From Agromyces sp. Root81 (GTDB lineage Bacteria; Actinomycetota; Actinomycetes; Actinomycetales; Microbacteriaceae), in the NCBI RefSeq assembly GCF_001429165.1, contig NZ_LMIR01000002.1, forward strand, positions 1,104,662-1,168,661: a stretch of DNA of 64,000 nucleotides, given 5' to 3'. A model generated the notes under the pieces. The model worked only from the letters and a program-made list of their open reading frames with translations. It made no database searches and had not been told where the DNA came from. Both the position numbers and the translations under genes were made by a program. Of the stretch, positions 1,096 to 1,264 are shown in pieces (within the stretch, counting starts at the first letter, position 1; each line of letters begins with the position of its first letter).

Positions 1096-1164
1096 TGAGA
1101 ACTCCGCTGGCGAGGATCGTCAGCCGGGCGCGCCGAAGCGGCACCGCGGCCAGGGTCATTGGCC

Positions 1165-1210
1165 GAGGCGGAGGGACGGATGAAAGGTTCGGTCGCTCCG
1201 CCTCAGGCGG
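1165..1210 (-). promoter_or_regulatory. Candidate attenuator upstream of erm (mutually exclusive stem-loops)
   Basis: On the transcribed (minus) strand, GAGGCGGAG (1196-1204) can pair with CTCCGCCTC (1165-1173): 9 perfect base pairs with a 22-nt loop. The same first arm can instead fold locally as CCGCC-TGA-GGCGG (1198-1210), whose loop is the stop codon of the leader ORF. A ribosome on that ORF would block the first arm, which is the usual logic of erm attenuation. The pairing is seen in the sequence; the regulatory role is inferred. Confidence 0.6.
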
Positions 1211-1250
1211 TGCGGGGCCGAATGATCATTGCCGTGTAATTGCAGGACAC
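1203..1250 (-). CDS. Leader peptide of erm (15 codons, MSCNYTAMIIRPRTA)
   Basis: A GTG at 1250 opens a 15-codon ORF ending with TGA at 1203-1205, about 110 nt before the erm start. An internal ATG at 1229 would give the octapeptide MIIRPRTA. A -10 hexamer 8 nt before the GTG suggests a leaderless message that begins with this ORF. The stop codon sits inside the attenuator hairpin. Short, charged leader peptides before erm genes stall ribosomes in the presence of macrolides. The particular sequence here is not one I recognise. Confidence 0.55.
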   Translation of the reverse strand: MSCNYTAMIIRPRTA

Positions 1251-1258
1251 GATCGTCG

Positions 1259-1264
1259 ACCCTA
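1259..1264 (-). promoter_or_regulatory. -10 element (TAGGGT) of the erm leader transcript
   Basis: TAGGGT on the minus strand ends 8 nt before the GTG of the leader ORF. A weak -35, TTCCGC, lies 17 nt further upstream. No ribosome binding site precedes the GTG, in keeping with a leaderless start. Confidence 0.45.

Follow-up and report, generated by a model that had tools for sequence, protein, structure and literature searches.

The short open reading frame upstream of the erm gene of the soil bacterium Agromyces sp. Root81 is likely to be a macrolide-triggered translational attenuator, and the transcript from which it would be translated is predicted to be leaderless. The window, namely the whole stretch of 64,000 nucleotides of contig NZ_LMIR01000002.1 that was analysed, had been the object of an original prediction of a leaderless, drug-sensing erm leader with mutually exclusive stems, and this view is now supported by comparison and computation, in particular by the fixed spacing of the -10 box, the position of an Arg-X-Arg motif and a 9-bp stem. 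To that prediction the present analysis adds a known arrest motif, the Shine-Dalgarno (SD) partner of one of the RNA segments (segment 2) and an account of how widely the design occurs. Similarly built leader frames precede the majority of the related actinobacterial erm genes that were examined; they are predicted to stall ribosomes with bound drug and would thereby probably turn resistance on.

The erm locus and its leader frame

All of the features described below are on the minus strand, and their coordinates are those of the window. With a score of 260 bits, the erm gene (1095-184), encoding a 23S rRNA methyltransferase, exceeds the cut-off of 212 bits of NCBIfam model NF000499 for Erm, and its product is 88% identical to an Agromyces cerinus protein. 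The TTG start that had been proposed for it (1095-1093), located 6 nt 3' of GGAG (1105-1102), is borne out by the sequence, being the sole ATG, GTG or TTG start in the frame before the conserved GRHELGQNF motif. The assignment is sound because the codon aligned to it in relatives is TTG, GTG or ATG and because the SD sequence GCGGAG (1107-1102) contains a CGGAG that is invariant in the 22 Agromyces sequences. The 3' end of the gene (220-351) is part of a 132-nt direct repeat, whose other copy, 84% identical, is found outside the window at a downstream distance of about 430 nt; the repeat regions examined were 1-351 of the window and 2052-2613 of L129. A short coding-like fragment between the two copies appears to resemble the end of an arylsulfatase.

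Upstream of the gene the elements follow one another in the order TAGGGT (1264-1259), 8 nt, leader frame (1250-1203), 95 nt, GCGGAG, 6 nt and the TTG at 1095. The TAGGGT hexamer, preceded by TGC as in the extended -10 type, is the -10 element that had been placed 8 nt before the GTG of the leader; it was found at exactly that place, its spacing is kept in all of the 22 leaderless Agromyces leaders, and it falls within the 6-8 nt between -10 box and start codon by which leaderless mRNAs are recognised. In the region 900-1400, neither a sigma-70-like two-hexamer site nor a -35 element was recognised, so that it is the -10 box that carries the promoter call.

The leader frame itself has 15 codons and a GTG start (GTG TCC TGC AAT TAC ACG GCA ATG ATC ATT CGG CCC CGC ACC GCC TGA, encoding MSCNYTAMIIRPRTA), exactly at the coordinates originally given for it. 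It is therefore a short ORF on the same strand and shortly upstream of erm, as in macrolide-inducible erm leader attenuators, and, as also in that class, it contains a known macrolide arrest motif. The peptide ends in Arg-Pro-Arg-Thr-Ala, in which Arg-Pro-Arg (1220-1212) is a predicted arrest site of the '+X+' type (motif from the accessible text of PMC8298421), with the Pro codon (1217-1215) four codons before the stop. The original prediction had not recognised this peptide among the described Erm leaders; its end does carry the known motif, which is not new in itself, and it is the fixed position of the motif and the leaderless layout that are additions. A pattern search with the leader end returned a single match in the genome, the erm leader.

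According to the accessible text of PMC8298421, ketolides predominantly stall ribosomes at Arg/Lys-X-Arg/Lys, and +X+ motifs are conserved in the uORFs of macrolide-resistance genes (citing Sothiselvam et al.). In the ErmDL leader described there, the arrested ribosome has X in its P site and the second Arg in its A site, and a change of either Arg abolishes arrest by telithromycin; with erythromycin, +X+ is dispensable and residues further upstream matter.

Recurrence and range of the layout

In a scan of named genomes, 287 encoded an Erm relative, and the best 80 of these 287 loci were used. Under the layout rule, a TANNNT box had to be followed after 4-9 nt by the start codon of an ORF that is no longer than 35 aa and ends in R.R plus 0-2 residues, with all of these elements no more than 400 nt upstream of the RHELGQNF motif. 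The rule held in 72 of the 79 anchored loci (window included) and in 53 of the 60 non-redundant ones, both counts being drawn from the best 80 of the 287 relatives. After dinucleotide shuffling, the layout appeared in a mean of 0.26 and a maximum of 2 of the 60 loci, and other 400-nt stretches of the same loci, on both strands, contained it in 5 of 1662 cases. That the leader is a chance ORF, as its shortness and the absence of an SD before it could suggest, has in our view a negligible probability, since the layout occurs in 53 of 60 loci, whereas shuffling yields about 0.3 of 60 and the control stretches 5 of 1662, and this candidate was rejected.

The seven non-redundant loci outside the rule are L015, L025, L028, L035, L047, L048 and L075; in two of them (L025 and L047) such a frame is present and its -10 box lies beyond the 400-nt limit. 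Two further loci without an anchor, L049 and L063, were left outside the counts, and the leader is present in both. The spacing from TANNNT to the start codon was 6-8 nt in all of the 53 non-redundant matches, though 4-9 nt were permitted: 7 nt in 33, 8 nt in 11 and 6 nt in 9.

The peptide end is similarly constrained, with the X of R-X-R four codons before the stop in 51 of the 53 non-redundant leaders. The first Arg is encoded by AGG in 21 of the 53, CGC in 14, CGG in 13 and CGT in 5, and X is D (14), P (13), I (9), L (8), T (6) or, once each, A, N and Y. Since the first Arg is kept while its codon varies, the sequences point to selection on the leader peptide. The same constancy bears on a very improbable reading, namely that the WhiB7 response drives erm at the promoter and the leader is a passenger. 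M. tuberculosis erm(37) does belong to the WhiB7 regulon (accessible text of PMC4128351), and promoter control by WhiB7 could coexist with control by the leader; against a passenger role, Arg-X-Arg is kept at a fixed distance from the stop despite the varied Arg codons.

Some Streptomyces leaders have features of their own. In L016, L025, L030, L050 and L065 the residues before the Arg-X-Arg end are nearly all Cys and Ala, e.g. MSACSCACAACACAACAAMTRIRRP. In Streptomyces poonensis (L031, 2707-2991) two tandem leader-like frames are found upstream of erm, the second of which ends in L-R-R-F, followed by TAG and CGGCGG, and is without the first Arg of the motif. The Streptomyces relatives L024, L032 and L037 have leaders ending in MRLRRS or MRLRRA, and the published pikR2 leader is reportedly of this kind. 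An identical leader, MGNLICVFAATHTLAVRDRRA, precedes erm in six records (L039, L040, L042, L044, L045 and L046) from actinobacteria that differ considerably (Homoserinimonas, Kocuria, Propioniciclava and others), which suggests that this leader moves together with a mobile erm gene.

Within the genus, 25 of 60 Agromyces genomes had an Erm match at E 1e-30 or better, and an Arg-X-Arg leader was found before all 25 of these genes, in 22 cases of the leaderless type ending in RPRTA. The other three (L105-L107) belong to diverged erm genes (45-46% identity) with shorter Arg-X-Arg-Thr-Ala leaders, MHASIRQRTA, MAYYIRLRTA and MFASIRLRTA, in which an SD-like sequence upstream, GGAGGG, GAGGAG or GGGGAG, replaces the -10 box at 6-8 nt; they offer a natural contrast between led and leaderless forms of the leader.

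Across the phylum the picture is different. In an even sample of 396 genomes, Erm matches with an E-value of 1e-50 or lower came from 21, including that of Root81, and the erm loci of the other 20 were anchored by tblastn. At 48% identity or more, 4 of 4 had a leader with a basic-X-basic end, three of them fitting the exact rule and L118 falling outside it because three residues follow its R-K-R. At 42% identity or less, such leaders were found in 2 of 16, namely L119 and L112 (K-L-R, with a 10-nt spacer); L124, with only 48 nt of upstream sequence, was too short to judge, and L120, L127 and L128 have frames with basic-X-basic ends and no preceding -10 box. Universality across the phylum is therefore ruled out, the distant Erm subfamilies being mostly without the leader, which, on this sequence sample, belongs to the RHELGQNF-type Erm subfamily and is not found before every erm-like gene of the phylum.

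Conserved pairings and folding models

The stop codon of the leader lies, as originally described, in the loop of a hairpin, 1:1' (CCGCC-TGA-GGCGG, 1210-1198). Stop-in-loop hairpins with an arm of at least 5 bp were present in 49 of the 53 leaders, compared with 4.6% of 1200 random TGA/TAG sites. Segment 1' (GAGGCGGAG, 1204-1196), the putative anti-anti-SD, is complementary along the full 9 bp to segment 2 (CTCCGCCTC, 1173-1165), and the alternative pairing that had been proposed with the latter is thus present in the sequence; 98.5% of cells are paired across the 22 Agromyces leaders. Segment 2 includes the anti-SD CTCCGC (1173-1168), which is complementary to the erm SD GCGGAG, and this 2:SD pairing is likewise kept in 98.5% of cells across the 22 sequences. 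In these sequences neither the 1':2 nor the 2:SD helix displays covariation, being too conserved. Between segment 2 and the SD there is a small hairpin, GGCC-AATGACCCT-GGCC (1164-1148), in which 17 to 22 of the 22 sequences are paired per position, with one double change. No Rfam element reached the gathering threshold in the window.

Outside Agromyces, alignments A2 and A3 held 21 and 25, respectively, of 59 leaders, identical sequences having been dropped and near-duplicates and leaders with unusual gap lengths or starts having been left out by hand. The sister group, 21 sequences of which 15 are from Microbacterium or Amycolatopsis, has TGA-stop leaders, mostly R-X-RRA, and a switch with more segments: a 9-bp helix with double changes in 4 pairs shares a strand with a 5-bp hairpin with double changes in 3 pairs. 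For each of these structures the double-change cells, the percentage paired and the covariation score exceeded all of the 500 shuffles, whereas the number of pairs with double changes was equalled or surpassed in 106 and 268 of the 500. For one of the two structures the further pair types were likewise no more frequent than in shuffles (reached by 499 of 500). In this group, these sequence data are evidence for mutually exclusive structures that would control the SD, and by homology of layout the same arrangement may carry over to Agromyces. In a third group (group C, 25 sequences with mostly TAG stops) the pairing of segment 2 with the SD is kept in 87.4% of cells, which is not in excess of shuffles.

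The conserved pairings also weigh on two other explanations. It is unlikely that the drug-sensing leader controls transcription, with the stalled ribosome keeping transcription from ending early, through Rho or otherwise, within the 107 nt that separate leader and erm. Transcription attenuation by a uORF is known in actinobacteria for lmrC and whiB7 (accessible texts of PMC8546547 and PMC4128351), but no terminator-like site was found in 900-1400, the SD is the conserved partner of segment 2, and the SD-hiding helix of the sister group is paired in 97.6% of cells. An attenuator with an intrinsic terminator was rejected, a hairpin with a U run between leader and gene being absent in 900-1400. 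Less probable still is that the stalled ribosome mainly shields the transcript from decay and that the alternative stems matter little: the accessible text of PMC5118997, on the correlation of erm expression with mRNA stability, would favour such a role, while the conserved stop-in-loop hairpins, the complementarity to the SD and the covarying exclusive helices of the sister group speak against it.

Folding of 1264-1096, which the original prediction had named as a check, gave -78 kcal/mol (z -3.97, with 1 of 200 shuffles as good) and is stable in comparison with shuffles, although the stretch includes the probably untranscribed promoter. In toeprinting practice, the distance from the P-site codon to the ribosome edge is 16 nt, and in our ribosome-masked folding everything between the 5' end and the position 16 nt beyond the first base of the P-site codon was kept unpaired. 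In 20 of the 22 Agromyces sequences and 13 of the 19 from group C, the SD was less paired with a stalled than with a terminating ribosome, and the 2:SD pairing was higher upon termination in 21 of 22 and 18 of 19, respectively; 6 of the 25 group C sequences, in which segment 2 was not found by the regular expression, were left out of this comparison. Codon-by-codon folding, with a wider expression for segment 2, covered 24 of the 25.

In the 22 Agromyces sequences, 1':2 had about 7 expected base pairs as long as the P site was seven to five codons short of the stop; it still had 5.5 with the P site at codon -4 and fell to 1.3 at codon -3, where segment 2 moved to the SD with 3.0 pairs and then about 5. 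The 24 TAG-stop-type sequences followed the same flip pattern, and the results at 30 and 37 C agree. In these models the arrest codon X, codon -4, is the last before the flip from 1':2 to 2:SD, which points to an OFF state kept by ribosomes at the stop that would cover 1' and to an ON state kept by ribosomes held by the drug at R-X-R.

The accessibility of the SD was low in every modelled state (0.15-0.33 in Agromyces), and a rise from bare to stalled RNA was seen in no more than 13 of 22 sequences in Agromyces, 9 of 21 in the sister group and 15 of 25 in group C. Bare RNA favours 1':2, with 6.4 expected pairs against 0.3 for 2:SD. A simple opening, by stalling, of an SD that is closed in bare RNA is hence unsupported by equilibrium folding, and the comparison between stalled and terminating ribosomes was used instead. 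Folding was given limited weight, because an equilibrium model takes no account of the sequence in which transcription and translation proceed. For the SD-hiding alternative pairings, complementarity is conserved and masked folding goes in the same direction, while opening from bare to stalled RNA is predicted inconsistently; the SD-opening step is one that we infer.

Proposed mechanism and significance

In the translational attenuator that we favour, a ribosome would, without drug, run to the leader stop and cover segment 1' (1204-1196); segment 2 (1173-1168) would then pair with the erm SD (1107-1102), and erm would be off. A ribosome carrying a macrolide or ketolide would halt earlier, its P site on the Pro codon and its A site on the second Arg codon. 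It would then extend no further forward than about the end of the stop codon, and segment 1', left free, would take segment 2, so that the SD would be released and erm would be on. The broader proposition of a one-codon ruler, i.e., of a class of leaderless drug sensors common to actinobacteria in which the drug is read as the position of a ribosome at a single codon, stands in our judgement at even chances, and so does its construction from an Arg-X-Arg locked four codons before a stop that is cradled in a hairpin loop. A ribosome at the arrest codon would leave the anti-anti-SD just exposed and one codon further would cover it, and the mRNA, needing no SD, could load intact 70S ribosomes.

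The proposed switch can be set beside several known systems, as the accessible texts of the sources describe them. ErmDL-ermD (PMC8298421) likewise has a short Arg-X-Arg leader before erm, in that case Arg-Leu-Arg; the leader studied here begins 8 nt 3' of a -10 box, carries its motif four codons ahead of the stop and has that stop in a hairpin loop. In ErmCL-ermC (PMC13410324), drug arrest on the leader refolds the mRNA and exposes the ribosome-binding site of erm, as proposed here, but the arrest motif is of another kind, and the OFF state proposed here is a ribosome at the leader stop. Inducible erm-type methyltransferases of actinobacteria are represented by pikR1 and pikR2 of Streptomyces venezuelae (PMC6685928). 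The leaderless cysteine attenuators of Mycobacterium smegmatis (PMC9031893) are also small leaderless frames in which ribosome speed regulates a downstream gene; they sense the supply of cysteine at contiguous Cys codons, whereas here Arg-X-Arg precedes a resistance gene. The window leader has one Cys codon and no contiguous ones, and a cysteine attenuator was rejected. Antibiotic-linked uORF control in actinobacteria is shared with the whiB7 and lmrC attenuators (PMC4128351, PMC8546547), which, unlike the present proposal, involve transcription termination, and the whiB7 uORF has an SD.

A survey of erm uORFs (PMC11264731) examined about 250 bp upstream and, in its accessible text, reports that no conservation pattern is common to all families; its main text contains neither 'leaderless' nor 'Streptomyces'. 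Our literature search, which had most subscription journals outside its reach, returned no description of a leaderless erm leader or of this conserved layout in the texts accessible to it. Compared with the lack of a universal pattern across families in the accessible text of PMC11264731, a conservation pattern has been found here within a large actinobacterial Erm subfamily.

The leader joins two subjects that have been studied separately, namely drug-stalled leader peptides and leaderless translation, and the fixed distance between arrest codon and stop is a sharp prediction. Actinobacteria are the main makers of macrolides and probably one source of mobile erm genes. A leader recognisable from its sequence would predict which actinobacterial erm genes are inducible and by which drugs, and leaders with +X+ should answer to ketolides too.
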